From: Verrucomicrobiaceae bacterium | GTDB taxonomy: Bacteria > Verrucomicrobiota > Verrucomicrobiia > Verrucomicrobiales > DEV007 | Direction: 5' to 3' | NCBI GenBank assembly: GCA_009936795.1 | Contig: JAACDM010000081.1 | Span: forward strand, 1-38,198 | DNA length: 38,198 bases | Shown: positions 1-36,689 of the stretch, in pieces | How the letters are laid out: the number at the start of each line of letters is the position of its first letter | Numbering within the stretch: the stretch's first letter is position 1 | Position numbers and translations under genes: made by a program | The notes under the pieces: model-generated | Database searches by the model: none | What the model was told of the DNA's origin: nothing | The model's input: the letters and a program-made list of their open reading frames with translations, nothing else

Positions 1-3000
1 CCAGCGGATGTGAGCTATGGTGTCAAGGAAAGGTCTTTGTTAGCCGAGCCGACGCCGGGCGACGAGAATGCAGTGGCCATTGGATCGCCGCCGCTCAAGC
101 CCACATTCTCGCGGGAGCGTGGCTTTGTATCCAGTCCGTTTCCTCTCATCATGATCGCATCGACTCCTCAAACGGTCATTCGTTACACAGTGGATGGGAG
201 TGCGCCGAGCGAGACGAATGGGCAGCTTTATCGGGGGCCCATTCAAGTGAATCAAACTACTGTTGTGCGCGCGGTTTGTCTGATACCTGATTGCTTGCCC
301 AGTCGTGTGACGACTGCCAGCTATCTCTTTCCGCAAGATATTCTCACGCCCTATCAGGATATCCCGGAAGGCTGGCCGCCCGCTCGCCTTATCAATGGCC
401 AACGTCTTGTCTATGGTATGGAAGCGCCGATGAATATCGGAGCGACTCATGACGAATTCGCCAAAGCGCTTGTTAGTGTGCCGACGGTCTCGCTTGTCAT
501 GGATCTGGATGATCTGTTGGATGAGGATACTGGCATTTACACGCATGCCGTAGAACGTGGTCGAGACTGGGAGCGCTCGGTTTCCATGGAATGGATCGAT
601 CCTCGAGACAACGTCTCCTCGTCAAAGCAAGCCGATGCGGGCTTGCGCATTCGGGGCGGCTACAGTCGTTCTCGGCGTGCGCCCAAGCATGGTTTTCGTG
701 TCATTGCGAGGTCGGCCTATGGTGACGACAAGTTTGATTGGCCCTGCTTCGGTTCAGATGGGCCTAACCGATGTCGTACGGTTGACTTGCGATCCCCTCA
801 GAATCACTCCTGGTCGACGGATGGATCCAAGGATAACACCTTCCTACGTGATGGCTTCTGTCGCGACACTCAACGGGATCTTGGGCGGCCTTACACACGT
901 GGCCAGTTTGTGCATCTCTTTCTCAACGGCGTCTATTGGGGCGTCTACGAGTCGCATGAGCGAGTCGATGCGGATTATGCGGAGCGGTATTTGGACGCGG
1001 ATCCCGAATCGGTCGATGTGATCAAAGCGGCGCACCCAGGAGTGCTGAAGACCGTGACGGCGCCGAGGGAGGGCGATTTGAATGCCTGGCGGCACCTTTG
1101 GGAATCGGCCAATCGCCTTGCGGCGCAGCGCGAGGAGTCCGTCCGGTCAGCGCTGTATTATGATTTGCAAGGGCTGAGCCCTGCTGGTGCTCCTGATCCG
1201 GACAAGGCCTCCTATGTCGACGTTCCAAGCCTGATCGACTACATGATGATCATCTTCTTCAGTGCGAATCAGGATGCGCCGATCTCACAGTTCTTTGACA
1301 ATCTTCGTCCAAACAACTGGTTTGCGGTACGGGATCGGGATGGGCGGGACGGTTTTCGTTTCTTTATCCACGATAGTGAACACAGTTTGGGCCTGCCAAA
1401 ACACTATGGAAATAGCCGAATAGGGCCGTTCGAAGGAGGTGCCGATTTCACGTATAGTAATCCCCAATGGCTGCACCAGCAGCTCATGTCCGTCGAGGCC
1501 TATCGCGAGGCCTTCGGAGATCGTGCAGAGGCTTTGCTAGGTCCTGGAGGCCTGCTTAGCGCTGAAGCTAACATTGCGCGGCTGAGCGAGCGTGAGCGTG
1601 TGTTGGAACCAATCATGGCATTGCATGCAGCGCGATGGGGCAGCGCGCGTTCGGATCGGCCTCGAACGAAACGTGATTGGCGTGGAGCTGTTGCGCGTCT
1701 CAAGACGTACCTTATTGAGCGTCCTGCAATTGTGAAGAACCAGTTGCGCGGAGCCAAGCGCTTTGCGCTAGGGGACCCAAGCCAACACTTTGAGATGGCG
1801 CCGCTGTATCCGTGGGTGGCCCCCCCGCGTTTCTGGACGGCGTTTGCCAATCCTTTAGCCGCGCATGTCACCGCGGACGAAGGGGAGGTTTTAGCCTTCG
1901 TCAATGGTGAGACGGAGAGCGCCGTTTCTCTGGGGCAACCGGTTCTGAAGGTATTGATCGATGACTCGACGCTGATGCGAATGTCTCAAGGTGCTAGTGC
2001 GGAGGATTGGATGCAACCAGGCTTCGATGATGCGGCGTGGAATGCTGCGTTGTCTGATAGGTTGGCTTCTGGCTATACTGCTTCTGAAGCCGGTAGTGTA
2101 GTCTTTGTGAGGACGACGTTCGAAATGGCCCAACTCGGGGCCTTGGTCGATCTCAAGCTTCGGTTCAAGTATGAGGATGGCTACGTTCTTTACCTAAACG
2201 GACATCCAGTGGCAGAAAAGGAGTCGCTCACAACGCGCCTCCGGGAAGAACGGGCGGTGCCTGAACTGCTCGATCTACGAGAACATTCCCTACGCTTACG
2301 TCAGGGGAAGAACGTTATCGCCTTCGCCAATCATCGGTTGAGACGTGTCAGTCGCGACTTTGAGTTTGGTCCCCGTTTGGAAGCCACCTTTGTCACGGGT
2401 GGCAAACCGCTGCCAGTTCGACAGGGTGGAACGATCCAGGCTCGCGCCAAAGTTGGCAAGCAATGGAGCGCACTAGCGGTTTATCGTTCCTCTGGGCCAG
2501 TGGAACGTGCCTCCGCCGCGAACTTCGTTATTTCGGAGATCATGTATCATCCTCCTGCGCTGTCGACGAAGGAGAAGCAACGCGGAGTGAAAGACTCAGA
2601 TGCGTTTGAGTTTCTCGAGTTTCTCAATACCGGGAGCAGTCCGATCAGTCTATCCAAGGTCCGTTTCATTGATGGCATTCAGTTTCAATTTCCGGATCGG
2701 AGTGCGCTGCTGGGGCCGGGTCAGCGATTGGTGGTGGCCAAGAACCCTAGCGCTTTCGCAGTTCGCTATCCAAAGGTAGAAGGGGTGTTTGGCCCTTATG
2801 CCGGTGGTCTCAAGAATGGCGGTGAGCGTCTCACTGTCTTGGATAGCCGCAGTCAGCCCATCGTGCGCTTCCGTTATGATGATGACGCTCCTTGGCCAAG
2901 CAGTGCCGACGGCTTGGGCTTCTCTCTCGTACTGAATTCGACAACAGGTAAAGTGAACTTGGGTAAAGCCTCCAGTTGGCGCGCAAGCACCGAAGTGCAT

Positions 3001-4074
3001 GGCTCTCCTGGACTTGGCGAGCCTGAATCGAGCTTTGCTGGCATCGTCATCAACGAAATCCTGACGAACTCAGACTGGCCGGATACAGATGCCATTGAAT
3101 TATATAACCCGAGTGAATACTTTGTAGATGTGAGTGGGTGGTTTCTCACGGATAACGTTAAGGAACCTAAGAAATGGGCCATCCCTTCAGGTAGTGTGAT
3201 CCCGCCAAAGGGTTATTGGGTTACCTATGAAGACAATGACGCGGATTCAACAAATAATGGTGATCTTCGGCCTAACTACTTTGGAGGAGCCTTCTCACTG
3301 AGCTCTCTCGGGGAGGAAGTGTTTCTCTTCTCTGCGGATGCCCAGGGCAATCTCACTGGTTATACTCATGGCTGTGAATTCGATGCCTTGCCCACAGGGA
3401 TCGCCTATGGTCGCTCTATCAATTCGGCGGGCAAGGATGTCTTCGCTATTCGCAAACCGACTCTCGGCCAGGCGAATGGCATGCCTTTGTTAGGTCCAGT
3501 CCTCTTCTCGGAGGTTCACTATCATCCTGAAGAAAGCGATACCGAGGAAGTGACCGAGTTTGTTGAGATTTGGAATCGAACGGATCATTCGATACCGCTC
3601 TTCGATTCCGAGCGCCCCGAGAATGCGTGGGCGCTGAAAGGGGCTAAATTCACCTTTCCACTAGAACAGACGCTCGCCCCAGGTGAAACGGCGCTTGTGG
3701 TGCGCATGAAGCCAGAAGAATTCCGTCAAAAGCGCGGGTTATCAGCGGAAGTGAAGATCTATGGGCCTTTTGAGGGAAGCTTGAACAATAGTGGCGAACG
3801 CCTTACCTTGGTGCGCCCGTTGGACCCTGAGGCTGACGGCAACCTTTCCGTGATTCCTATGGTACCTGTCGATTCTATCCGCTATAACGACAAGGCTCCC
3901 TGGCCGCAGGAGGCAGACGGAGCTGGAAATTCGCTAGAGCGTCGCGATAGTTCTGGAATCACCGATGAACCGAAGACTTGGCAGGCCTCCTCAAGTGTAG
4001 GGGGAAGCCCAGGAACTACGCCTCTAACTTTAAAACCTACAACGAACGACAATCAAGATGATGATGAATTGTAA
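1..4074 (+). CDS. Secreted CotH-kinase / lamin-tail-domain protein A (5' end outside window)
   Basis: The frame is open from base 1, and the first visible residues align with the region after the first lamin-tail domain (LTD) of the next gene, so the signal peptide and LTD1 lie upstream of the window. Visible order, in residues from base 1: chitobiase/hexosaminidase C-terminal-like domain (~30-112, YTVDGSAPS), CotH kinase-like domain (~160-480, with GLRIRGG, FLNGVYWGVYE and HDSEHS near 457-462), a galactose-binding-like segment (~650-800, FDDAAW and YLNG), then three LTD modules starting near 840 (VISEIMYHP), 1013 (VINEILTN) and 1165. CotH-fold proteins are atypical protein kinases in Bacillus spore coats; here the substrate is unknown and an extracellular site is inferred from the paralogues' signal peptides. 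The 3' end overlaps the next gene by 17 bases, implying co-transcription. A GTG at base 10 is available but is not the real start. Domain calls are by eye. Confidence 0.85.
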   Translation, partial: PADVSYGVKERSLLAEPTPGDENAVAIGSPPLKPTFSRERGFVSSPFPLIMIASTPQTVIRYTVDGSAPSETNGQLYRGPIQVNQTTVVRAVCLIPDCLPSRVTTASYLFPQDILTPYQDIPEGWPPARLINGQRLVYGMEAPMNIGATHDEFAKALVSVPTVSLVMDLDDLLDEDTGIYTHAVERGRDWERSVSMEWIDPRDNVSSSKQADAGLRIRGGYSRSRRAPKHGFRVIARSAYGDDKFDWPCFGSDGPNRCRTVDLRSPQNHSWSTDGSKDNTFLRDGFCRDTQRDLGRPYTRGQFVHLFLNGVYWGVYESHERVDADYAERYLDADPESVDVIKAAHPGVLKTVTAPREGDLNAWRHLWESANRLAAQREESVRSALYYDLQGLSPAGAPDPDKASYVDVPSLIDYMMIIFFSANQDAPISQFFDNLRPNNWFAVRDRDGRDGFRFFIHDSEHSLGLPKHYGNSRIGPFEGGADFTYSNPQWLHQQLMSVEAYREAFGDRAEALLGPGGLLSAEANIARLSERERVLEPIMALHAARWGSARSDRPRTKRDWRGAVARLKTYLIERPAIVKNQLRGAKRFALGDPSQHFEMAPLYPWVAPPRFWTAFANPLAAHVTADEGEVLAFVNGETESAVSLGQPVLKVLIDDSTLMRMSQGASAEDWMQPGFDDAAWNAALSDRLASGYTASEAGSVVFVRTTFEMAQLGALVDLKLRFKYEDGYVLYLNGHPVAEKESLTTRLREERAVPELLDLREHSLRLRQGKNVIAFANHRLRRVSRDFEFGPRLEATFVTGGKPLPVRQGGTIQARAKVGKQWSALAVYRSSGPVERASAANFVISEIMYHPPALSTKEKQRGVKDSDAFEFLEFLNTGSSPISLSKVRFIDGIQFQFPDRSALLGPGQRLVVAKNPSAFAVRYPKVEGVFGPYAGGLKNGGERLTVLDSRSQPIVRFRYDDDAPWPSSADGLGFSLVLNSTTGKVNLGKASSWRASTEVHGSPGLGEPESSFAGIVINEILTNSDWPDTDAIELYNPSEYFVDVSGWFLTDNVKEPKKWAIPSGSVIPPKGYWVTYEDNDADSTNNGDLRPNYFGGAFSLSSLGEEVFLFSADAQGNLTGYTHGCEFDALPTGIAYGRSINSAGKDVFAIRKPTLGQANGMPLLGPVLFSEVHYHPEESDTEEVTEFVEIWNRTDHSIPLFDSERPENAWALKGAKFTFPLEQTLAPGETALVVRMKPEEFRQKRGLSAEVKIYGPFEGSLNNSGERLTLVRPLDPEADGNLSVIPMVPVDSIRYNDKAPWPQEADGAGNSLERRDSSGITDEPKTWQASSSVGGSPGTTPLTLKPTTNDNQDDDEL

Positions 4075-7000
4075 GCACCTTATCTCGAGCTTGGTGGCCT
4101 CCTTGGGAGTGGTTACTACCGTATCCGGAATCTCAGCACCCTCGCTTGTGATCACAGAAGTCATGCCTTCTAACGAAGATGTTGTTTTTGACGGGGATGG
4201 AGATGCTTCTGATTGGGTTGAGATCTATAACGCAGGGAACGAGCCTGTTGCTTTGAAGGGCTACACCTTAACTGACGATCCTGCCAACCTTGGGAAATGG
4301 GCGTTTCCAGATCGTAAACTCAATGGTGGCGAGTTTCTCTTGGTCTTTGCTTCGGGGAAAGATCGTGCCAAAGGCGACAGTCTCCACACGAATTTCAAGC
4401 TCGGGGCTAAGGGTGAGTTTCTCGGGATGTACAAGGGAGGGGAATCCATTCAAACGTTTGCACCGTCCTTACCCAAGTTAGGGCAGAATGAGTCCTATGG
4501 TGTGGTCTTCAAAGGTGGTCGGGCTGATATGAATAAGTCAGGTGCGTTGTTAGAGCCAACGCCCGGGCAGCCCAATGCCGAGGCTTGGGCTTTGCCGCAA
4601 ACGGCCGATACCAAATTCAGTCAGGATCGGGGCTTTTATGACACACCATTCAAGGTAGCGATCACCTCTGCAACTGGTGATGCGCAGAGTCGCTATACGA
4701 CCGACGGCAGTCAGCCTAATCAAGAGGGTGGGACACTCTATGAAGGACCGATCGAGATCACGACAACAACCACGCTACGAGCAGCAGCCTTCTCCGACGG
4801 CATGCGTTCTTCTGACATTGATACGCATACGTATATCTTTCCAAAGGCAGTCATGCGACAACCCGAGAGTCCCGAGGGCTGGCCTAGCACTAGGCCGGGA
4901 TATGCCGGCCGCGGCGGTGGTGGCTTTTTCGGCTTTGGTCGACGGAAGGGTGGTCGAGCGGTGGACATGGATTACGCCATGGCGGCTCCGAGCGATGTGA
5001 AAGCGACCGAAGAAGAAGTTGTTGAAGCGCTAACTTCCTTACCTTCGCTCTCGGTGGTGACGGAATTGTCCCACTTATTGGATAGCAAAGAAGGTATCTA
5101 CGCCCATCCCAGTAATCGTGGTCGGGATTGGGAACGGCCTATTTCCGTCGAACTCATCGACCCGACGGGTGGGGAAGAAGGCTTTCATTGGAATGCGGGC
5201 CTGCGCATTCGTGGTGGCCATAGTCGCAGTCCATACTGTAAGAAGCACGCCTTTCGAATCTATTTCCGAGATGATTATGGCGATGGCAAACTGAACTACC
5301 CGCTCTTTGGCAGCGAAGGGGTTGAGGAGTTCGACGACATCGATTTGCGAACGGCACAGGACTATTCCTATCATTATTCTGACTCTGGCTCGCAGAACAC
5401 GATGGTGCGCGAGGTCTTCTCTCGCGATACCCAACGCGCCTTTGGCCAGCCCTACGCTCGGAGTCGCTACTACCATTTGTATTTGAATGGGCTCTATTGG
5501 GGGCTCTATCAGTCTCAGGAACACACCGAAGCGTCTTACGGCTCGAGCTATTTCGGCGGTGATGAGGACGACTACGACACGATCAAGGCATCACGCACTG
5601 GCGAGCGTGCCACCGATGGCAACGAGGAGGGCTGGCGTCATTTGTACGAAGAATCTGGCAACATTGCGGCCGAGTCGGATCCAGGCAAACGGCTCGAACG
5701 CTATTATGATCTTCAAGGGCTCGATTCCGCTGGAAATCCAGATCTGAAGAAGACTGTCTATCTCGATTCAGAGAACTTGATCGATTACATGCTCATTATC
5801 TTTTATACCGGCAACTTTGACGCGCCGATTTCTCGCTTCATGGGGAACCGCATGACGAACAACTGGTTCTCCATCTTCCAACGTGATGGCCGTCGCGGCT
5901 TTCAGTTTTTCTGTCACGACTCAGAGCACTCCTTAGGTTCGGATGGCGGTGCCCGTATCAACCGTGTTGGGCCGTTCCCTGCTGGATCAGACTATCGCGG
6001 CAGCAATCCGCAATGGATCCACCAACAGTTGCTGGCGGTGGATGAGTATCGACAGGCCTTTCAGAAGCGCGCGGAATGGGCGCTTCTCGGTGAAAATGGT
6101 CCATTGACAGAAACTGCCGTCCTAGACCGCATTGATCGACGTGCGGCGACTGTCGGCAAAGCCATCCTCGCAGAATGCGCACGCTGGGGTGACGCCAAGG
6201 ATGAACCGCGGGATGGGCTGAGTTATACGAAGCAAGATTGGACAGGGGCTATCGAGCGCTTGAAAGAAGTAGCCACGGTTCGCTCTCAGCTTCTGCCAGA
6301 GCAGCTTCGACTCTCCCGGCGATTTAAGCATGGTAGGCTTACGGGGGAACTTGTTCCGGCACCGTTGTTCAATCCGGTGCCCATTCCTGTCATGCGCTGG
6401 CGTGATGATGCTAAAACCCGAGGGACGTTCCAACTGAGCCAAGGCAAGACGGTCTTCTACACGACCGATGGATCTGATCCCAAGGACCAAGGTGAGGCAA
6501 GCCAGGCCACGCCGTCGACGACATCACGCAAGTCACTTCTCCCTGCGGGTAGTGTCATTCGCGCCTTCGTGCCCAAGACCAATGCGCTCAAGCAAACCTG
6601 GACCAAGCCCGATTTCGATGATTCGAAATGGCGGGCAGGCATCGGAGGCGTTGGTTATGATTTCAGGCCGGACTACAAGTCTCTCATCGGCGTCGATGTC
6701 CGAGATGAAGCCGCTGGAAAATTCCCCAGCGTTCTCACTCGCTCTCTCTTTAAGTGGGATGGGATCCCTATCGAGAAGCTGGTCCTCAATCTCAAGTTCG
6801 AGGATGGTTTCATCGCCTACCTCAACGGAGTGCGCGTGGCTTCGCACAATGCCCCGAAGATTGCTAACAATGTGGCTAGTGCGTGGGGGCAGCACATGGA
6901 TGGTGAAGCTATGCGGTGGAAGCCATTCGATCTCAGCGAACACACAGATCTTCTTGTCACCGGAAAGGACAACGTCCTGGCCATTCAGACGATGAACGAT

Positions 7001-8728
7001 CGTGTGGGGAGTTCCGATCTACTCATCTACCCAGAGCTTGTGGCCGAACGAGAGATTTCAGGTACTGAGATCACCCTGGGGAAAGGGGTGCGTGAAGTAA
7101 GAGCCCGTGCTTTCGAAATGGATCGCTGGGGACCCATGCGTGTCGTGCCAATCGTCACTGGTGAAGCCGGGGCGGCTGCATTGGCCGCTGCTGGGAACGT
7201 GGTCATCTCAGAGATTATGTACCATCCTGGCGAACCCACTGCCGAAGAGGCGGCGGACGTATCTGAAGATCCCGATGACTTTGAGTTCGTGGAGGTGATG
7301 AACATTAGTGACGAAGACGTGAGCTTAGCAGGGGCATCGTTCTCCAATGGAATAGATTACATTTTCCCCAAGAATGCATCTTTGAAGGCGGGCGAACGTG
7401 CCGTCATTGTTAACAACCTCGGAGCGTTTCAGAAGCGTTACGCGGACAGCAAGGCCAAAGTCTTGGGCCTGTATGACGGTGGTCTGAAGAATTCTGGTGA
7501 GAAACTTACGTTGAGCGATGCCGATGATAACGTGATTGCGAGTGTGTCCTTCAAAGACAGTACCCCTTGGCCGCAGAGTGCTGACGGGCTCGGTTTTTCG
7601 CTCGTGCTCAAGGTTCCAGAATCGAATCCATCTCTAAACGAGGCGGGTAATTGGCAAGCGAGCAGCTCGGTTGGTGGCTCGCCAGGTGCTGGCGACGAGG
7701 CCACTGCCGGCGGTGTCGTTATCAACGAGATCCTCACGCATACTGACCTTCCCAATGTCGATGCGATTGAACTCTACAATCCAACGGATGCCGAGATCGA
7801 TCTTAGTGGCTGGTTCCTTACCGATGACACGGACACGCCTGACAAGTACCGTATTCAATCAGGTACTAAGATTGCTGCCTCTGGCTACGTCGTTATCAAA
7901 GGGGACAATGACGACGTTCCTACGAACAACGATTCCCTACCTGCAGATCGCTTTGCCAAGAGCTTCTCGCTCAGTTCACATGGCGAAGAGATTTATCTCT
8001 TCGCGGCCGATGCCTCTGGCCAGCGCACCGGTTACAGCCATGGATTCGAATTCATCGCCTCGCAGAATGGCGTTTCCTTTGGTCGGCACATCAACTCCGA
8101 GGGCAAAGAGCTCTTCCCACCGCAGCTCGCGTTGACGTTGGGTGCGGAGAATGCTGGTCCTGCCAAACCGGCTGTCGTGATCAGCGAGATTATGTACCAC
8201 CCTGATGACAACGATGAGGAAGAAGGCGAGTTCATCGAAATCTGGAACTGGGGTAGTAAAGCTGCTCAGCTCTTTGATCCTGCTAACCCGGCCAACACCT
8301 GGCGACTCAGTGGCGTGAAGTTCACCTTCCCCGAGAAGCAGACGCTCAAGCCGAACGAAGTTGCTCTCATCACTCGCCTCGATCCAGACACCTTCCGTCG
8401 TCGCTATAAAATTGAGGCGTCGATCAAGGTCTTCGGCCCACTCGATGAGTCAGCCAAACTCTCCAACAAAGGAGAACGTCTCCGTCTCCTGCGCCCTGAT
8501 CTTCCCGATGTCGATCTGGAGACCCAGGAAACCACCGTGCCAATGCTAGAAGTCGATTCTGTTCGCTACAACGACCGCGATCCTTGGCCCGAAGCGGCTG
8601 ATGGCGAGGGCGTCTCCATGGAACGGATTCCTGCGGCAGAGTTTTCAGATGATCCTGAGTCCTGGAAAGGCTCTGCTCAAGACGGCGGCACGCCTGGGAA
8701 CGTTCCTGCCGTATCGGCAACGCCTTAG
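4058..8728 (+). CDS. Secreted CotH-kinase / lamin-tail-domain protein B, full length (1556 aa)
   Basis: Begins at three consecutive ATG codons inside the end of the upstream gene. An N-terminal signal peptide (hydrophobic, ending near VSGISA, residue ~26) leads into LTD1 (~29-150, VITEVMPSN and DWVEIYN), a chitobiase-like domain (~185-262, YTTDGSQP), a Gly/Arg-rich insert (~281-300), the CotH kinase-like domain (~325-690; GLRIRGG 381-387, LYLNGLYWGLY ~474-484, HDSEHS 620-625), a second chitobiase-like piece (~785-845), a galactose-binding-like region (~850-1010) and LTDs starting near 1046, 1218 and 1371. The protein is a close paralogue of the gene before it, so this is a tandem duplication. 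It is presumably exported and may bind and modify cell-surface material; neither substrate nor catalysis can be read from the sequence. The candidate metal-binding D621/E623 are conserved between A and B. Confidence 0.88.
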   Translation: MMMNCKHLISSLVASLGVVTTVSGISAPSLVITEVMPSNEDVVFDGDGDASDWVEIYNAGNEPVALKGYTLTDDPANLGKWAFPDRKLNGGEFLLVFASGKDRAKGDSLHTNFKLGAKGEFLGMYKGGESIQTFAPSLPKLGQNESYGVVFKGGRADMNKSGALLEPTPGQPNAEAWALPQTADTKFSQDRGFYDTPFKVAITSATGDAQSRYTTDGSQPNQEGGTLYEGPIEITTTTTLRAAAFSDGMRSSDIDTHTYIFPKAVMRQPESPEGWPSTRPGYAGRGGGGFFGFGRRKGGRAVDMDYAMAAPSDVKATEEEVVEALTSLPSLSVVTELSHLLDSKEGIYAHPSNRGRDWERPISVELIDPTGGEEGFHWNAGLRIRGGHSRSPYCKKHAFRIYFRDDYGDGKLNYPLFGSEGVEEFDDIDLRTAQDYSYHYSDSGSQNTMVREVFSRDTQRAFGQPYARSRYYHLYLNGLYWGLYQSQEHTEASYGSSYFGGDEDDYDTIKASRTGERATDGNEEGWRHLYEESGNIAAESDPGKRLERYYDLQGLDSAGNPDLKKTVYLDSENLIDYMLIIFYTGNFDAPISRFMGNRMTNNWFSIFQRDGRRGFQFFCHDSEHSLGSDGGARINRVGPFPAGSDYRGSNPQWIHQQLLAVDEYRQAFQKRAEWALLGENGPLTETAVLDRIDRRAATVGKAILAECARWGDAKDEPRDGLSYTKQDWTGAIERLKEVATVRSQLLPEQLRLSRRFKHGRLTGELVPAPLFNPVPIPVMRWRDDAKTRGTFQLSQGKTVFYTTDGSDPKDQGEASQATPSTTSRKSLLPAGSVIRAFVPKTNALKQTWTKPDFDDSKWRAGIGGVGYDFRPDYKSLIGVDVRDEAAGKFPSVLTRSLFKWDGIPIEKLVLNLKFEDGFIAYLNGVRVASHNAPKIANNVASAWGQHMDGEAMRWKPFDLSEHTDLLVTGKDNVLAIQTMNDRVGSSDLLIYPELVAEREISGTEITLGKGVREVRARAFEMDRWGPMRVVPIVTGEAGAAALAAAGNVVISEIMYHPGEPTAEEAADVSEDPDDFEFVEVMNISDEDVSLAGASFSNGIDYIFPKNASLKAGERAVIVNNLGAFQKRYADSKAKVLGLYDGGLKNSGEKLTLSDADDNVIASVSFKDSTPWPQSADGLGFSLVLKVPESNPSLNEAGNWQASSSVGGSPGAGDEATAGGVVINEILTHTDLPNVDAIELYNPTDAEIDLSGWFLTDDTDTPDKYRIQSGTKIAASGYVVIKGDNDDVPTNNDSLPADRFAKSFSLSSHGEEIYLFAADASGQRTGYSHGFEFIASQNGVSFGRHINSEGKELFPPQLALTLGAENAGPAKPAVVISEIMYHPDDNDEEEGEFIEIWNWGSKAAQLFDPANPANTWRLSGVKFTFPEKQTLKPNEVALITRLDPDTFRRRYKIEASIKVFGPLDESAKLSNKGERLRLLRPDLPDVDLETQETTVPMLEVDSVRYNDRDPWPEAADGEGVSMERIPAAEFSDDPESWKGSAQDGGTPGNVPAVSATP

Positions 8729-13049: not shown

Positions 13050-14072
13050 ATGATTGCTCAGCTCGATGCCATCCATCAAGACGCGCAAGCTGCTATCGAG
13101 GATGCCTGCGATGAAGCCGCGCTCGAAGAGTTTCGTATCCGTTTCCTCGGCAAGAAAGGTGCCCTTACCCAAGCAGCCTCAGGAATGCGTGACGTGTCCA
13201 AAGAGGACAAGCCTGCCGTGGGGCAGAAGCTTAATGAAGTCCGCCAAGCACTGACGAGGTTTGTCGAGGCGCGTTCTGCCCAACTCCTTGCTTTGAAAGA
13301 TGCGGAAGCGGCCAAGGGGATCGATGTGACGTTGCCGGGGCGTCGCCCGCAACAAGCGGCTTTTCATCCGCTGACCCAAGTCATGCACCGTGGTATCAGC
13401 GCCCTTCGGCAAATGGGATTCACCTTGGCGGCAGGACCTGAAGTGGAGACAGAGTTCCATTGCTTTGATGCACTGAACACGCCCGAAGATCATCCTGCCC
13501 GCAATGAGAAGGACACCTTCTACTTCGCTGATGGTCATCTACTGCGGACGCACACCTCTTCTGTGCAGGTTCGCACCATGGAGACCACGAAGCCGCCCGT
13601 GCGCATCATAGCGCCGGGCAGTGCTTACCGCCGTGATGAGATCGATTCCACCCACCTCAGTGTCTTTAGTCAAATGGAAGGGCTGTATGTTGCTGAAGAT
13701 GTCAGTCTTGGGGACTTAAAGGGAACGTTAGAGCGACTCTTCCGCGCGATCTTTGGTCCCAAGACGCCCGTGCGGTTTCGGCCGCACTTCTTTCCTTTCA
13801 CGGAGCCTAGCTTCGAGATCGACATCAAACTCCAGCCGAAAGGTCAAGATCCGCGCTGGATCGAAATTGCCGGGTGCGGCATGGTCGACCCCAATGTCTT
13901 CCGCCAAATCTGCGAATCGCGTGGGGATGATGTCTATGATCCTGACAAAGTAACTGGATTTGCTTTTGGTCTCGGATTGGAACGTCTCGCCATGATCATG
14001 TGGGGCATTCCTGACATCAGGCTGCTCATCGAGAATGATCAACGCTTCCTCCGTCAATTTGCATCTGCTTAA
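13050..14072 (+). CDS. pheS: Phenylalanyl-tRNA synthetase alpha subunit
   Basis: A 340-residue class II synthetase subunit of normal length. An N-terminal coiled-coil arm (~1-85) contacts tRNA-Phe. The catalytic core carries motif 2 (GSAYRRDEIDSTH near 192), the Phe-binding region (FFPFTEPSFE) and motif 3 (GLGLERLAMI near 313). It activates Phe with ATP and charges tRNA-Phe as an alpha2-beta2 enzyme with PheT, whose gene starts 10 bases later. The start is the ATG at 13050; it has no Shine-Dalgarno and is preceded by an A/T-rich run. Confidence 0.97.
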   Translation: MIAQLDAIHQDAQAAIEDACDEAALEEFRIRFLGKKGALTQAASGMRDVSKEDKPAVGQKLNEVRQALTRFVEARSAQLLALKDAEAAKGIDVTLPGRRPQQAAFHPLTQVMHRGISALRQMGFTLAAGPEVETEFHCFDALNTPEDHPARNEKDTFYFADGHLLRTHTSSVQVRTMETTKPPVRIIAPGSAYRRDEIDSTHLSVFSQMEGLYVAEDVSLGDLKGTLERLFRAIFGPKTPVRFRPHFFPFTEPSFEIDIKLQPKGQDPRWIEIAGCGMVDPNVFRQICESRGDDVYDPDKVTGFAFGLGLERLAMIMWGIPDIRLLIENDQRFLRQFASA

Positions 14073-14081
14073 CCGTTAGTC

Positions 14082-16169
14082 ATGAATACCTCTCTCAATT
14101 GGCTCCAAGATCATATCGATCTTTCTGACTACTCAACTGACGCCCTTTCGGATCTCCTCACCTTTGCCGGTATCGAAGTGGAAGGCATCCAAGAACGTGG
14201 TGCCGGCGTCGATCACGTGGTTGTCGGTCAGATCAAGAGTTCGGATTCTCACCCTGGCGCAGACCGCTTGAGTGTCTGTCAGGTTGATGACGGCAGTGGC
14301 TCGCTCCGTCAGATCGTTTGTGGAGCCAAGAATTACAAGGTCAATGACAAGGTTCCCGTGGCTCTTCCGGGCGCCGTCTTGCCGGGCGATTTCAAAATCA
14401 AGGAAGGCAAGCTACGCGGTGTCGTTTCGAATGGCATGATGTGCAGTGGCCGTGAACTCCAACTCACAGACGACCATGAAGGCCTCCTTATTCTGAAGAC
14501 CGACGAGGCTACGGGGACTCCGATTGGTGAGCTGTTTGAATCGGACACCCTTCTGGAGCTTGAGATCACGCCGAATCGTCCCGATTGCCTGAGCCACTTG
14601 GGCATCGCGCGCGAACTAGCAGCCCTTGCCAAGCGCCCACTCAAAGGAGTTCCTCATTATGGTGCAAGCAGTGTGACGCAGCAGCCCGCCAAGACAGAGG
14701 AGATCACTTTGGAGGCGTCGGAGTCCTGTCCATTCTACACAGCTCGTCGGATCACCGGGGTGAAGGTCGGCCCAAGTCCGGACTGGCTCAAGGGCAAGCT
14801 TGAAGCCATCGGTTTGCGTCCTATCAATAACATCGTAGATATCACCAACTACGTCCTCTTCGAAATGGGGCAGCCCTTGCATGCGTTCGATGTGGCTAAG
14901 CTCGACGGTGGCATTTGCGTGCGTCTGGCCAATGATGGTGAGACCTTCCAGGCTCTGGATGGCAATGAATATGCCTTGCAGACGGACGACTTGGTCATCG
15001 CTGATCAATCGAAGGCGGTGGCCATCGGCGGCGTCATGGGCGGCGAAGATTCTGGGGTCACTGAAGGCACCACCGACGTGCTCTTGGAAAGTGCCTACTT
15101 CACGCCCAGCCACATTCGCCGTACATCGCGACGGTTAGACTTGAGCAGTGATTCAAGTTACCGCTTTGAGCGCGGGATCGATCCTGCCCAAACGATCGGA
15201 GCATCGGAACTCGCGAGCAAGCTCATTCTCGAACTCGCAGGTGGCAAGGCCGAAGACGTTCTGCTAGTTGCTGGCGAAGTGCCCGCGTCTCCATCGCCCG
15301 TGATGCTTGACCATGGACGGGCCCAGCGTTTGTTAGGCGTCGATCTCTCTGAAGACGAGATGGGCGAGATTCTTACGGGGCTTGGCTTGGAAAGTCAGGG
15401 CGCCGGTGCCTGGAAAGTGCCTAGCTTCAGAGGCGATCTCGAACGTCATGTGGATCTGGTAGAGGAAATTGCGCGTGTTTACGGCATCGATAAGATTCCT
15501 GCCCGTGAAGTGGCATTCTTTGCGGAGCCAAGCAAGGAAGACGCGCGTTATGATGCCCATCATCAGCTACGCCAGCGTCTGGTCGATCTAGGCTACGATG
15601 ATTGCCTCACGATCAAGCTCATTTCAGATGCGCAACTCGCGGACGATCTTTGTGCCTTGCGCCTCGGCAAGCAGAACCAAGCAGTGCCTCTTAAAAAGCC
15701 ACTCTCGCAAGATCACACGACCCTACGCCCAAGTGTCCTCCCGGGGTTGCTCGATGTGGCTGAACGAAATATTTGCCAAGGAGCGACAAGCCTCAAATTC
15801 TTCGAAATTGGCACCGTCTTCTCCAAGCACGAGAAGAGCCCGAAGGTGCTCGAATCGCAACAGCTCGGCATTGTGTTGTCTGGCGACATGACCAACGCGT
15901 CCTGGCACGGAGAAACGGCCCAAGCCGACATCTGTGATTTGATAGGACTCTGCGAAGCGCTCTTTGGCGGTGGCAAGCAAGCCGTGACCATGCGACGCCT
16001 GGAGCAAGAAAGCCTTCTTGTGGCAGCAGAGGTCTTGCTAGGCAAGTCGGTCATTGGCCGCCTTGGCCAAGTCGATCCTGCGCGTGCCCGTGAAATGGAT
16101 TGCCAAGGCCCGCTCTACGTTGCTGAGATCGATCTCGCAAAAGCGATCAAGCCGAGCCTATCGGCATAG
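14082..16169 (+). CDS. pheT: Phenylalanyl-tRNA synthetase beta subunit, stopped before its C-terminal domain
   Basis: The 695 codons cover the N-terminal EMAP/OB-like tRNA-binding domain (~40-150), the B3/4 editing domain (~200-390, ADQSKAVAIGGVMGGEDSGV), the B5 domain (~400-470) and the synthetase-like core (VEEIARVYGIDKIPAR onward). PheT is normally about 790-800 residues. Here TAG at 16167-16169 ends the frame, yet the missing anticodon-binding FDX-ACB domain continues in the same frame right after it. With the TAG read as sense, the total is 799 codons including the final stop. A CAG (Gln) to TAG change is the simplest origin. Either the base is wrong, the gene has just been inactivated, or the subunit is made as two chains. 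TAG is the ordinary stop of rpmI and rplT nearby, so general TAG recoding is unlikely. Confidence 0.93.
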   Translation: MNTSLNWLQDHIDLSDYSTDALSDLLTFAGIEVEGIQERGAGVDHVVVGQIKSSDSHPGADRLSVCQVDDGSGSLRQIVCGAKNYKVNDKVPVALPGAVLPGDFKIKEGKLRGVVSNGMMCSGRELQLTDDHEGLLILKTDEATGTPIGELFESDTLLELEITPNRPDCLSHLGIARELAALAKRPLKGVPHYGASSVTQQPAKTEEITLEASESCPFYTARRITGVKVGPSPDWLKGKLEAIGLRPINNIVDITNYVLFEMGQPLHAFDVAKLDGGICVRLANDGETFQALDGNEYALQTDDLVIADQSKAVAIGGVMGGEDSGVTEGTTDVLLESAYFTPSHIRRTSRRLDLSSDSSYRFERGIDPAQTIGASELASKLILELAGGKAEDVLLVAGEVPASPSPVMLDHGRAQRLLGVDLSEDEMGEILTGLGLESQGAGAWKVPSFRGDLERHVDLVEEIARVYGIDKIPAREVAFFAEPSKEDARYDAHHQLRQRLVDLGYDDCLTIKLISDAQLADDLCALRLGKQNQAVPLKKPLSQDHTTLRPSVLPGLLDVAERNICQGATSLKFFEIGTVFSKHEKSPKVLESQQLGIVLSGDMTNASWHGETAQADICDLIGLCEALFGGGKQAVTMRRLEQESLLVAAEVLLGKSVIGRLGQVDPARAREMDCQGPLYVAEIDLAKAIKPSLSA

Positions 16170-16172
16170 CCA

Positions 16173-16478
16173 GTGACGGATCTGCCCAAGTTCCCTGCCA
16201 TCACGCGAGACATTGCCCTCGAGGTGCCCTCCGACATGGAGAATGCGGAAGTGGCGAACTTCTTCAACAAGCAGAACGACGTTCTGCTAGTGGGCTTCAA
16301 GATGTTCGATCTCTTTGCAGATCCGACGGGAGAGAAACTCCCAGTCGATAGGAAGTCGGTGGCCTACACCCTCACGTATCGTTCAAACGACCGCACGTTG
16401 AAGTCGGAGGAAGTCGACAAAGCGCATGCCAAGGTGTTGGCCGCGTTGCCCAAGCTCGGGGACGTGAAACAACGCTAG
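16173..16478 (+). CDS. pheT: PheT C-terminal FDX-ACB domain, separated by an in-frame stop
   Basis: Opens three bases after the pheT TAG in the same frame, with an available GTG. It encodes PKFPAITRDIALEVP, the conserved beginning of the ferredoxin-fold anticodon-binding domain, and continues through GEKLPVDRKSVAYTLTYR and RTLKSEEVDKAHAKV to a normal C terminus. In bacterial PheRS this domain binds the anticodon stem-loop of tRNA-Phe. All family landmarks are intact and no further lesions are seen, so the domain was under selection until very recently or still is. Separate translation by stop-start coupling is conceivable, but no ribosome-binding site is visible. Confidence 0.8.
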   Translation: MTDLPKFPAITRDIALEVPSDMENAEVANFFNKQNDVLLVGFKMFDLFADPTGEKLPVDRKSVAYTLTYRSNDRTLKSEEVDKAHAKVLAALPKLGDVKQR

Positions 16479-21996: not shown

Positions 21997-22212
21997 TTGA
22001 TCTTGGCGCATGCGCCGGATTGGAAAGTAGCATTGCTGCTAGCCATTGCCTTATGGGCCTTCTGCCGCTTCTACTACTTTGCCTTTTATGTGCTGGAGCA
22101 CTATGCTGACTCCCGGTTTCGTTATGCGGGATTGTGCGACTTGGCGCGCTACCTAATCACGGGTAAGCCAAGCGAGGGTCAAGAGGTAGAACCTGAGGAT
22201 GGTGAGCGTTAG
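21997..22212 (+). CDS. Small membrane protein, probably 5'-frameshifted
   Basis: The frame encodes a hydrophobic helix (WKVALLLAIALWAFCRFYYF) and a soluble acidic tail ending EPEDGER. TTG at 21997 is the only start shown by the open frame, but recognisable hydrophobic sequence (KGVLFPVIGLIRSGLILA) extends upstream in frame from about 21955. An ATG at 21923 in another frame encodes MDISNPRVLH and stops at 21955. Restoring one C near 21951 would join them into a ~96-residue, two-helix inner-membrane protein starting MDISNPRVLHLKGVLF. I do not recognise a function. It follows the sulfatase by 123 bases on the same strand and overlaps the 3' end of the convergent DUF58 gene by 4 bases. Confidence 0.6.
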   Translation: MILAHAPDWKVALLLAIALWAFCRFYYFAFYVLEHYADSRFRYAGLCDLARYLITGKPSEGQEVEPEDGER

Positions 22213-22766
22213 AGAAGCCCCGCGTCTTTGATTTCCAAGTAGCGGTTGGTGAGCGCGGTGGGGAGATTGGCAGCAGTGTCGTCCAGAGTCAGGATGCCAT
22301 GCGAACGGATCTGCTCAAAGGTCTGAGTGCGCTCCTCGACATAACGCTGGGTGGCGCTATGTGAGAGTGCGTCTTCAAAGGTGGTGACAGGATATTTCAA
22401 GGCTCCCTCGGTGGTAGATTCGCGGAGGCTGGCGATGAGTGGAAGATGACGCTGCTTCATGAGTTGGAGTGGTGGAAGAATGTTGGCAATGTCTTCACTC
22501 CGCAGATTGGTAAGGAGTATGACGAGGGCGCGGCGGCGTTGACGCATCATGAGGCGCTCGGCTGCTTCGGCGAAGTCACTCGTCTGCGGGCCCGTCTCGT
22601 AGTCGTAGAGATGGTTGAGCAAGGTCGTCATGGCGTGTTGCCCTTTGACCGGTGGCAACCAGCGGTCCGTGCCGCCGAAACTGAGTACACCCACGTGGTC
22701 GCTCTGACGGAGAGCGATAAATGAGAGTAGGAGTATGGAGTTAAGGCAGTGATCAAACTGTGAGAG
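22209..22766 (-). pseudogene. DUF58 protein, C-terminal part downstream of an in-frame TAA
   Basis: Continues the DUF58 gene in the same frame after the TAA at 22767-22769: LSQFDHCLNSILLLSFIALR, then VGVLSFGG, RWLPPVKG and a vWA-like C-terminal half ending NRYLEIKDAGLL. The family normally has both halves in one chain of ~430-440 residues; the joined frame here is 437 codons. A GTG at 22694 is the first conventional restart, but it would leave out about 24 conserved residues. No other damage is seen. Confidence 0.75.
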
Positions 22767-23519
22767 TTATCCATCGAGAGCACGCATGCGGCGTCCGCAA
22801 TCAACCATGAGAATGATGTTCTGGTCCCGCTCCTCTCGATACTCGCGGCTGATGAGTTGGAGGCGTTTGGAGGTGGCTTTCCAATCGATTTGGGAAAGGT
22901 TGTCGCCTTCTTGATAGTCGCGCAGCTGATGAAAGTTGAGACTGGCTCCACGGCGATGCTTCATGACGATACCCATCTGGTTCTCGCGGTTCTCCATGGC
23001 AAGGAGGGCGTAGCGCACGACAGGTTCGTAGTTTGGATAGACCCGGATCTCGTCCTGATGATCAGTAAGATAGCGGCGCTGCCAAAGACCGAAAGGAGAT
23101 TGGTGTAGAACGTGAATGGATCCCAGTGCAGAACGGCCTCGTTTGCGCATGCGGATGGGATAGGCGACTGTGGTGAAGCCCTTGGATTGAACGGTTCCTG
23201 TCCACGGAATGTCTGGGGCGTGGGCTTCTTCCGGGAGGCCATCGAAGACCGAGAGGTGGGCGATCAAATGTCCTCGATTGTGCAATGTTAGCAAAATTTC
23301 GTCGTCGACGTTGAGGGCAAGGTGTCCAGGAATCCTGCGCTCGATGTCGATTCGTTTGCTGGACTTCGCTAGAATGAAATCAATTCCAGAAAGAGCCGCG
23401 AGCAGAGCCCCAAGCCCCCACCATAGAACCACGAATTGCGCCCAGAAAGACGCAGCGATACCGATAGCAATCCAAACGAGGATGCCGTGGAGTAGGCGTG
23501 AGGTGGGCCTCATCGACAA
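22767..23519 (-). CDS. DUF58 protein, N-terminal part, truncated by TAA
   Basis: The 250-residue product has two N-terminal membrane helices (~10-50) followed by the DUF58 beta-sandwich and the hallmark block RGASLNFHQLRDYQEGDNLS...IDWKATSKR, then LMVDCGRRM, the start of the vWA-like metal-site region. DUF58 proteins pair with MoxR-family AAA+ ATPases, and the moxR gene ends 14 bases upstream. The chain stops at TAA in the middle of the vWA-like fold; GAA to TAA is the likely change (family members often have an acidic residue here). A product this short should not fold properly. Confidence 0.85.
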   Translation of the reverse strand: MSMRPTSRLLHGILVWIAIGIAASFWAQFVVLWWGLGALLAALSGIDFILAKSSKRIDIERRIPGHLALNVDDEILLTLHNRGHLIAHLSVFDGLPEEAHAPDIPWTGTVQSKGFTTVAYPIRMRKRGRSALGSIHVLHQSPFGLWQRRYLTDHQDEIRVYPNYEPVVRYALLAMENRENQMGIVMKHRRGASLNFHQLRDYQEGDNLSQIDWKATSKRLQLISREYREERDQNIILMVDCGRRMRALDG

Positions 23520-32390: not shown

Positions 32391-35300
32391 CTATTCAGCA
32401 ACGGAGAGACGTAAGAAACGCACTTCCATTGAGCTCTCGAGAGTGAGCGTGACGGATTCTTTCGTGGCATCGATGACCGTGGTGCCTGACTCACTGGCAG
32501 TGGCACCGGCAGGCTGCCACGCTTTGAGGTCGGAAGAGACTTCGACCTTGATAGGTGAACCGTCGAGATCTCGGCGGCGCTGATAGCTTATGGAGACGGC
32601 ATCGCCTTCGGTCGCAGCAGTAATGAGTGAACCGCTGTCCGCAGGTCGTGGATCTTTGGCAAAGGCATACTCAATCCGATTGACCAGGCCATCTTCATCT
32701 GGGTCGGCCATAGGACCCACGATGGCGGCATCGCCTAACTGATCGGCGCTAAACGACTCGGCTTGCCACTGGGCGAAGGTGAGACCTGGCTGAGGTTCGC
32801 TACCCCCGTCAGCCGTCCCAGGGCTGCCTTGATCGGAGGCAGAGGCGTTCCAGCTCTGAACTTCATCGGCGTAGGCATCCAGTGAGGTTCGTTCTAGTGA
32901 ACGCCCCGTGCCATCGGCTGCGATCGGCCAGGGCTCGGCATCGTTGTAGCGCAACGAATCTTCGGTGATCTTAGTCGTCTTCTCGACTCCATTGTCGAGA
33001 TAGGTCTCACCAGGACGCTCAAGTGTGAGACGTTCGCCATCATTGTTCAGTCGGCCGTCGTAGCCTCCAAAGATGGTGATTCCGTCAGGGATGCTTGGGT
33101 AGAGTGTGCGTGCTGCATCGCTGGTGGCGCGAGTGACGAGAATGACTTCTCCTCCTGCCATGGTTACGCCCTCCGGAACAGTGAAGCCTATTCCGCTGAT
33201 GCGCCAGCCTGCAAGACTGACAGAAGCTTCGGAGCGATTGACGAGTTCCAGATATTCTCCAGCATCGTCGGCCTGAGAGGAATTATACATAATTTCCGAG
33301 AAGACGATCTGGCCGAGGCGTGGTGCACTGTTGACGTCTCCAAGAGAGGCCGTCGCTTGTGGCGGATATTCCCCTCTTCCTTGCGAATCGACCACGCGCC
33401 CAAACGTGACGCCCTCTTCAGCATCGCCGAAGGAGAAGCCATCGCTGTAGCCGGTCAGCTGGCCGTCGGCCTGAGCGGAGAAAAGATGGACGGCATCGCC
33501 ACGTGAACTGAGTGAGAAGGCTTTGCCAAAAAATTCCGCTGGCAGGTCGGCGTTGTTTGTTGGATCACTGTCATTGTCTTCAAGGATGACGAGGTAACCG
33601 CCAGCAGGAATGTTCGCCCCTGCGGCTATGGCATACTTGCTCGGCTCGTTTGGATCATCGGTGAGGAACCAGCCGCTCACATCGATGGCTTCGGCTCCGC
33701 TGTTCAATAGCTCAATGGCATCGACTGCAGGTGGTGCTGAGTTTGTGAGGATCTCGTTGACCACCACGCCAAAGCTTGGGGCTGTTTCATCGGTGCCTGG
33801 CGAGCCGCCGGGTGCGGCACTGGCGCGCCAGGAGCCACCTTTGTTAGGATCAGCATTGTTGTCCGTAAGAACGAGTGAAAAACCCACGCCGTCGGCTGTT
33901 TGCGGCCAAGCGCCGCCATCACTGTATTCGAACTCCTGAATAACTGCACCTTCAGGACTTATGAGTCCGATCGCTTCGCTACCGTTTTTCAGGCTACCAT
34001 CATAGATTCCTGCAATGGCAATAGCATCGCCATAGCGGAAACGAAACGCTGCTTCATCAACGACGAGGATCAAGCTTGCTTCGGGCGCCAGCACTGCATT
34101 CGGACCGGCTACAAATTCATAACGAAACCCGCGACTAAACTGGCATCCTGTGAGATCTACGACTTGATCGCTGATATTGCGCACCTCGATATACTCGAAG
34201 TCATCGCTACTCACATGACCTGCTGCCGACTCTGCAGCCGTGGGCGGCGCCGGATGATACATCACTTCAGAGATAACCGTGTTCGAGGCGCTCGCTGGAG
34301 TCACCGCGACGCGGTAATAAGATTCCGTAAGGGCGCTCCAGTCTCCACTCGCGGCCCGAACACGCGCTTTTACCCATGCGGATTCTGTAAGAATCACCCC
34401 GCCTGAATATTCAATCGCTTCCGCATCGATCTCCTCGTCAATCGTGCTCGGGTCATTTCCGTTCAGCGTGTAGTAGATCTTTCCTGGATTGAAAAGAGAG
34501 ACCCCTTTGGACGAGAGTTTTAAATTGAAATCTTGTTCAACCGCACTGCCGACTTGCCCGAGATCGACGCCAGCGAGATTGGGATAGAGGCCCCAGTCTT
34601 TGAAATTGTCGAGCGCTTCCTCGACGCGGTCGGGGAAGAAATCTTCCAGGATGCGTTTCTGTTCAGTCAGCCAGTCGTCATCCCGCGTGTAGGGGTCATT
34701 CGCACGCCTGAAGTCGCCCCATCGAGCACTCTCGGCGACCATGGCGGTGTGGAGTTCGTCAGCTCGTTCTTGCCAGCGGCTAACATTCGCCTCAGGCGTC
34801 AGCGCGCCTCCGTTGAAACTATGTTTCTGGAGGCGATCCCCAAAACGACGGACAAACTCAGGATGATCGCTGAGATCATCGAGGATGCCGGTTGGATCGG
34901 CCGAAGGTGTCGGCAATTTGAAGTTCACCTCTTCGATGATGCGCTCCGTATCCCAGAGAAAGAAGCGCCATGGCAATTCGTCAGGACCGCCTCCGGCCGC
35001 TTTCCAGTTGCCATTGTTCTTAAGGTCGTGATTTCCCATCCACCGCTGAACGATCGTCCAATCGATGTAGTCATCGATATCCACCAGTTCTTCGATGCGT
35101 TCCCACGGCGTGTTGGCGTTAGAGACAGCGCTCTTCATTGCGTTGTACTCTGACAAAGAGCCATTGGTTGGGCTGCCTCCGTTGAGCGCGTCGATCTCTC
35201 CCGCATAGCCTCCGTAATAATCGGCATAGTGCGAGTGATCCATGCGTTCATGGACATTGTAGATTCCCCAGTAGTGGCCATTCAAATAGAGGTGGAAATA

Positions 35301-36689
35301 GTTGCCGTGCCCTGCTCCTTCGAAGCCCATGTCTAACGCTGTGTCGCGTGCAAACTGATCGCGCATCAGTTGGCCTCGTCCCTGTTGGCCACCATTGCTG
35401 TGGTGCCAGGTGTTGTTGTATCGAGCACGCAGATGGATGGCATTGAAGGAAGTCATGGGTGAGTCTTCAATGAGGGGGAAGTTCAATTTCCCAACGCCAT
35501 AGTTCTTTCGAAAGCGCAAACTCATGGCGTGCTTTGGCGAGCGATCCGCATTTCGACTCGCACCACCCTGGGCGCGGAGGCCGCATGGCACTTGCATGGA
35601 TTCTCCGTTTACATTGATGAACTCGGCGGAGACGGCATACTCATATCTGAAATCAGCACCCTCACCTTGTTGCGGCCTGCGAGTCACATTGAGATATAGA
35701 CCATTGCGTCCAAAGAGGTTGTCTTTGTCAGTGACAATCGAGAGCGTTGGGATGTCCTTGAGCGCTTCTTCGATCTCATCTTTGTAGGCAGGATCATCGA
35801 CCACGTCTGGATCCATTTCATAGTCGGCTGTTTGGTTGCTCTCCCAACGAGCAGGATATCCATCCGGTTCATCTTCCTGACGAATCACGTCTTTGGTGAA
35901 TAGGTAAGTATGAGTGTCGATGTTGGTGGGCTCAATCCCATCTCTATAAGCGCGTGCGCGCAACACGGTAGTTTCTTCGATGGCCAAGGGCTCGGTGTAC
36001 TTCTTGCCGGGTGTAAATACTGAACCGGGACCAGGATCGCTTCCGTTTGTGCTGTAGTAGATGATGGCGCCTTCGGTTGCTGTGGTGATGGCAACCGTGA
36101 TAGGCTCATCATAGAAGCCTCGGCTCATACTAAACTTGGTATCGGCAACACGCGGTGGTAGGTCGACGCGACCAGGGCCGTTGGCGGCACGAGGTGTCGG
36201 CGTTTCGAAATAGCGCTCTTCGGTGCCATCGTTCTCATTGTCACCAATCCCATAGGATAGCCCGAGCCTTTGGTTGGGGTATTTGCTAGCAAACTCGCTT
36301 AAGACACTCTCCCCATCTGGGGCGACAAGGGCGAGATACTCACCTGATTCGCTCAGTTCGAAATTTGTATGGAACGTCGATGCGAAGAGACCGCCCTGGT
36401 TCTTACCGGAGGCGAAGATGATCCCGTACCCACCCGGAGAAAGACTGAGAGATCCGGGCACTTTCCATTTGCGGAGATTGCGCCTGTCATCCGTCAGGAA
36501 ATGATCTTTGAGATCCACAGAGCTTCCAGTGGGATTGTAGAACTCGATCCAATCTGAAGAATCGCCATCATCATCCTCAAGAGCTTCCAGATTGGAGGCC
36601 ATGAATTCGGAGATGACCGCCGTGTCCTGCGCGCGAGCAGTGACGATGGCAAGCGCAAGAATGAGGAAAAGGAATTGGGGGTTCTTCAT
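32391..36689 (-). CDS. Secreted CotH-kinase / lamin-tail-domain protein C (1432 aa)
   Basis: Signal peptide (MKNPQFLFLILALAIVTARA), then LTD1 (~24-145, VISEFMASN and DWIEFYNPTG), a chitobiase-like domain (~185-265, YSTNGSDPG), the CotH kinase-like domain (~310-700; GLRAQGGASR ~370-379, LYLNGHYWGIYNVHERMDH, FFLWDTERI with D580/E582), a second chitobiase-like domain (~722-795), LTDs starting near 803 (VISEVMYHP), 975 (VVNEILTN) and 1125 (IVFSEIMYN), and a C-terminal tail (~1295-1432) with DPDEDGLVNRIEYAF, a calcium-binding-like repeat, ending RFLRLSVAE. It is a paralogue of the two genes at the left edge, but lacks their galactose-binding-like segment and has WDTER where they have HDSEH. It lies between the mutarotase gene (50 bases upstream) and the CAP gene. 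Confidence 0.88.
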   Translation of the reverse strand: MKNPQFLFLILALAIVTARAQDTAVISEFMASNLEALEDDDGDSSDWIEFYNPTGSSVDLKDHFLTDDRRNLRKWKVPGSLSLSPGGYGIIFASGKNQGGLFASTFHTNFELSESGEYLALVAPDGESVLSEFASKYPNQRLGLSYGIGDNENDGTEERYFETPTPRAANGPGRVDLPPRVADTKFSMSRGFYDEPITVAITTATEGAIIYYSTNGSDPGPGSVFTPGKKYTEPLAIEETTVLRARAYRDGIEPTNIDTHTYLFTKDVIRQEDEPDGYPARWESNQTADYEMDPDVVDDPAYKDEIEEALKDIPTLSIVTDKDNLFGRNGLYLNVTRRPQQGEGADFRYEYAVSAEFINVNGESMQVPCGLRAQGGASRNADRSPKHAMSLRFRKNYGVGKLNFPLIEDSPMTSFNAIHLRARYNNTWHHSNGGQQGRGQLMRDQFARDTALDMGFEGAGHGNYFHLYLNGHYWGIYNVHERMDHSHYADYYGGYAGEIDALNGGSPTNGSLSEYNAMKSAVSNANTPWERIEELVDIDDYIDWTIVQRWMGNHDLKNNGNWKAAGGGPDELPWRFFLWDTERIIEEVNFKLPTPSADPTGILDDLSDHPEFVRRFGDRLQKHSFNGGALTPEANVSRWQERADELHTAMVAESARWGDFRRANDPYTRDDDWLTEQKRILEDFFPDRVEEALDNFKDWGLYPNLAGVDLGQVGSAVEQDFNLKLSSKGVSLFNPGKIYYTLNGNDPSTIDEEIDAEAIEYSGGVILTESAWVKARVRAASGDWSALTESYYRVAVTPASASNTVISEVMYHPAPPTAAESAAGHVSSDDFEYIEVRNISDQVVDLTGCQFSRGFRYEFVAGPNAVLAPEASLILVVDEAAFRFRYGDAIAIAGIYDGSLKNGSEAIGLISPEGAVIQEFEYSDGGAWPQTADGVGFSLVLTDNNADPNKGGSWRASAAPGGSPGTDETAPSFGVVVNEILTNSAPPAVDAIELLNSGAEAIDVSGWFLTDDPNEPSKYAIAAGANIPAGGYLVILEDNDSDPTNNADLPAEFFGKAFSLSSRGDAVHLFSAQADGQLTGYSDGFSFGDAEEGVTFGRVVDSQGRGEYPPQATASLGDVNSAPRLGQIVFSEIMYNSSQADDAGEYLELVNRSEASVSLAGWRISGIGFTVPEGVTMAGGEVILVTRATSDAARTLYPSIPDGITIFGGYDGRLNNDGERLTLERPGETYLDNGVEKTTKITEDSLRYNDAEPWPIAADGTGRSLERTSLDAYADEVQSWNASASDQGSPGTADGGSEPQPGLTFAQWQAESFSADQLGDAAIVGPMADPDEDGLVNRIEYAFAKDPRPADSGSLITAATEGDAVSISYQRRRDLDGSPIKVEVSSDLKAWQPAGATASESGTTVIDATKESVTLTLESSMEVRFLRLSVAE

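Follow-up and report, generated by a model that had tools for sequence, protein, structure and literature searches.

The pheT gene of this draft metagenome-assembled genome is interrupted by one in-frame TAG (positions 16167-16169), and we think that this stop is probably an error in the assembly consensus, or a base of a minor strain that entered the consensus. The TAG is present in the record, the corresponding gene is intact in relatives, and conserved genes of the same draft show a surplus of isolated in-frame stops; from these comparisons we infer that the base at 16167 itself is wrong. Since relatives are intact and the draft has many similar stray stops, the most likely cause of the interruption is an ordinary error or else a mutation of recent date, rather than a new kind of split enzyme.

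The pheT locus

The window, by which we mean the whole stretch of 38,198 nucleotides that was analysed, corresponds to contig 239 of a 95% complete draft genome, which comprises 6.6 Mb on 739 contigs. Towards its two ends the window encodes three very large proteins with a CotH kinase domain and repeated lamin-tail domains (10-4074 and 4058-8728 on the plus strand, and 32391-36689 on the minus strand). The genes at the locus studied here are arranged in the order rplT, pheS, pheT. An intact pheS, which encodes the PheRS alpha subunit (13050-14072, plus strand; PF01409 at 5.3e-89, and PF02912), lies directly 5' of pheT, an essential gene. The first open frame of pheT (14082-16169, plus strand) begins with ATG, encodes 695 amino acids and is closed by the in-frame TAG; its domain matches are to tRNA_bind, B3/4, B5 and the catalytic-like domain CLM, which, adjoining pheS, mark the gene as pheT.

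As described in the original prediction, the TAG interrupts a longer frame (14082-16478), which is open again from 16170 to a normal terminal TAG at 16476-16478. This continuation (16170-16478, plus strand) holds the anticodon-binding FDX-ACB domain, also called B8, and the domain is indeed conserved, with a match to PF03147 at 16185-16457 that covers profile positions 1-88 of 94 (E 1.1e-21). Thus, FDX-ACB is in frame here but past the TAG, while in the congeners it belongs to one uninterrupted frame. The two parts joined amount to 798 codons, equal to the congeners, so that the normal PheT length claimed for them is confirmed. Moreover, protein identity to the nearest congener is 90% and runs through the stop, and the continuation is therefore not a chance frame.

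The stop was also said to fall at a domain boundary with a GTG three bases later, and we find both to be correct. The CLM match in the joined protein ends 11 residues short of the stop, and FDX-ACB starts 6 residues past it; alignment to solved PheRS beta chains likewise places the stop in the linker that joins these two domains. The GTG at 16173 is in frame and might in principle serve as the start of a second chain. A search of the draft genome for a second pheT, which had been proposed as a check, found no second copy of either part and no other FDX-ACB domain.

The stop site in relatives and selection downstream of it

We compared the codon at the stop site among relatives. The other three genomes in the genus all have a Glu codon at this position (GAG, GAA and GAA), each within an open frame of 798 codons. 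With Glu in all congeners, the ancestral codon was one for Glu, and the stop is most simply explained by a G to T substitution that converted GAG to TAG. Thus, the earlier suggestion that a CAG-to-TAG mutation or a sequencing error would be simpler than two chains holds in so far as a one-base change or error is the best supported explanation, but the codon that it assumed does not hold: CAG was to be looked for in relatives, and 3 of 3 congeners have Glu codons instead. Outside the genus nearly any residue occurs at the site in the family comparison, as would be expected of a linker.

To place the stop in a wider context, we sought FDX-ACB across the taxonomic family; of 75 genomes, 65 have it, each in one copy. 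No other family genome surveyed has a stop at this pheT site, so that the stop is unique to this draft and the family provides no second split at the site, as a naturally split gene kept in relatives would. Other short pheT frames in the survey were considered as splits and rejected: those of G007, G016, G067, G069 and G070 end at contig ends, that of G011 runs into a stretch of N, and that of G023 results from a frameshift. The last of these (L098, on contig 450 of G023) comes from a distant family member with a 70% complete draft, in which pheT is frameshifted upstream of FDX-ACB.

Divergence from the nearest congener indicates how the two parts of the gene have been constrained. The part past the stop has a dN/dS of 0.026 (5 nonsynonymous and 36 synonymous changes), and the part before it has a dN/dS of 0.062. 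Judged by these substitutions, the FDX-ACB part was under strong purifying selection until very recently, which implies that the stop is either recent or absent from the cells. The low value for the second part is compatible with an error, with a mutation of very recent origin and with continued translation of this part, and does not separate them.

In-frame stops elsewhere in the draft

A second interrupted gene lies in the same window, 6.6 kb from pheT, and bears on the background rate of stray stops. This DUF58 gene (22209-23519, minus strand) is cut by a single in-frame TAA at 22767-22769. DUF58 matches lie before and after this stop, and the congener ortholog has GAT at the site and an open frame of 436 codons. 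The cut DUF58 gene adjoins a MoxR-type AAA gene.

We surveyed about 1.15 Mb of the draft genome, sampled in stretches, for further stops of this kind. An in-frame TAG in gnd (L120:964) replaces a Trp kept in all three congeners, a TGA in hrpA (L141:3501) replaces Gly, and a TAG in a DUF2891 gene (L117:8289) replaces Gln/His; an esterase gene (L122:3717) and a sulfatase gene each have an in-frame TAG as well. The residues replaced by the stray stops are unrelated (Trp, Gly, Gln/His, Asp and Glu), and the stops in gnd, hrpA and the DUF58 gene fall in the middle of a domain. Thus, isolated nonsense changes are in excess across unrelated conserved genes of this draft, as would be expected of consensus errors.

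Two counts compare this load with that of congeners. Inner stops occur in 8/137 sulfatase domains here, in 4/108 of a congener assembled in 470 contigs and in 0/84 of a congener assembled in 70 contigs (Fisher P = 0.025 for 8/137 against 0/84), although any link between fragmentation and stop load is based on these three genomes only. In a homology scan restricted by a coding-frame filter, which we added because the unfiltered scan was swamped by shadow frames, we found 27 stops in 103k codons here, none in 39k codons of the well-assembled congener and 1 in 24k codons of another congener; the stop count is rough, since the filter let in a few doubtful cases and dropped the true DUF58 case. At the rate of the draft, the chance of finding no stops in the well-assembled congener is about 1.6e-4. 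A well-assembled congener was thus free of such stops in both comparisons.

One sulfatase gene has several in-frame stops in both species (G000 contig 163, L116; G002 contig 409). Being broken in the draft and in the congener, it is probably a shared true pseudogene. Since some of the counted stops thus lie in true pseudogenes, the counts do not measure the error rate cleanly. For the lone stops in gnd, hrpA and pheT, by contrast, a base error is an easy explanation and a pseudogene a difficult one.

Discussion

We propose that the TAG is a GAG codon with one base wrong in the consensus of this metagenome-assembled draft, or that the consensus took up the base of a minor strain. The living population most likely has an unbroken pheT of 798 codons, encoding an ordinary bacterial PheRS beta subunit. 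The most likely order of explanations puts such an error first and a real but rare nonsense variant second. A genuine nonsense mutation that arose recently in the sampled population, and that would be harmful or almost harmful, would need only one substitution in a linker that tolerates any residue across the family, and the undecayed C-terminal part is what a very recent change would leave. However, pheT is single-copy here and is established as an essential gene, which makes a mutation of this kind an unlikely, if reasonable, alternative, even if low-level readthrough or residual activity of a PheRS without B8 perhaps provided partial rescue. The domain that would be cut off is also one of consequence, since in Thermus B8 contacts G34, the strongest identity determinant of tRNA-Phe (PMC9976931).

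That same contact in Thermus PheRS, taken together with the archaeal and eukaryotic cytosolic enzymes, in which B8 is missing and the anticodon is recognised by other means (PMC3275996), makes a detached B8 imaginable. Translation would then terminate at the TAG and restart at the GTG at 16173, and B8 would join the enzyme as a separate chain of 101 residues; the GTG so close to the stop, the place of the stop between CLM and B8, within a linker, and the persisting selection on the C-terminal part all agree with this. We nevertheless consider two functional chains very improbable, because no relative has the arrangement that this draft has, because we saw no Shine-Dalgarno-like stretch before the GTG, and because other genes of the draft have the same kind of stop in the middle of a domain. 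Moreover, no promoter-like site or terminator was found at the junction, and the sequence around the stop is not more stable than its shuffled versions (fold z-score +0.93), as might have pointed to a recoding structure; our search of the literature for PheT nonsense mutants or a detached B8 found nothing directly relevant. The idea in the original prediction that coupling could yield two chains thus gains no support. We give still less credence to the possibility that TAG is read, wholly or partly, as an amino acid by a suppressor tRNA or under a reassigned code. Several conserved genes do have an in-frame TAG, and 18/27 of the filtered in-frame stops are TAG, compared to 47% expected from codon usage (P = 0.03), an excess that is mild and too weak to build on. 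In contrast to what recoding predicts, TAG is not depleted at the ends of genes but closes more long open frames (181/425) than either of the other stops, and pheT itself, TAA and TGA also occur inside genes, and the residues replaced by TAG are not one amino acid but differ (Glu in pheT, Trp in gnd, Gln/His in the DUF2891 gene). Neither the 26 tRNAs recovered nor a genome-wide pattern of anticodon and T loop yielded a tRNA with a CUA anticodon, although the tRNA list is incomplete, as is the draft, so that this does not prove its absence. The frequent terminal use of TAG and the failure to find a CUA suppressor tRNA leave recoding unsupported.

If the split were real, it would mean that B8 of a bacterial PheRS could act in trans. 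At present it serves as a warning: in a draft genome built from metagenome data, chance can place a stop codon between two domains of an essential gene. A comparison with congeners, combined with a look at the nonsense load of the draft itself, settles most of the question.

The gene has the domains of bacterial PheT (tRNA_bind, B3/4, B5, CLM and FDX-ACB) in the same order and with the same total length, and differs from it by one in-frame TAG between CLM and FDX-ACB. The first open frame alone would resemble the archaeal and eukaryotic cytosolic enzymes in being without B8, but the enzyme here is of the bacterial type throughout and B8 is still in frame. Like the usual stray nonsense changes of draft metagenome-assembled genomes, which are isolated single-base stops scattered over unrelated conserved genes, the pheT stop stands alone; it differs from them in that it happens to fall at the domain boundary of an essential gene.
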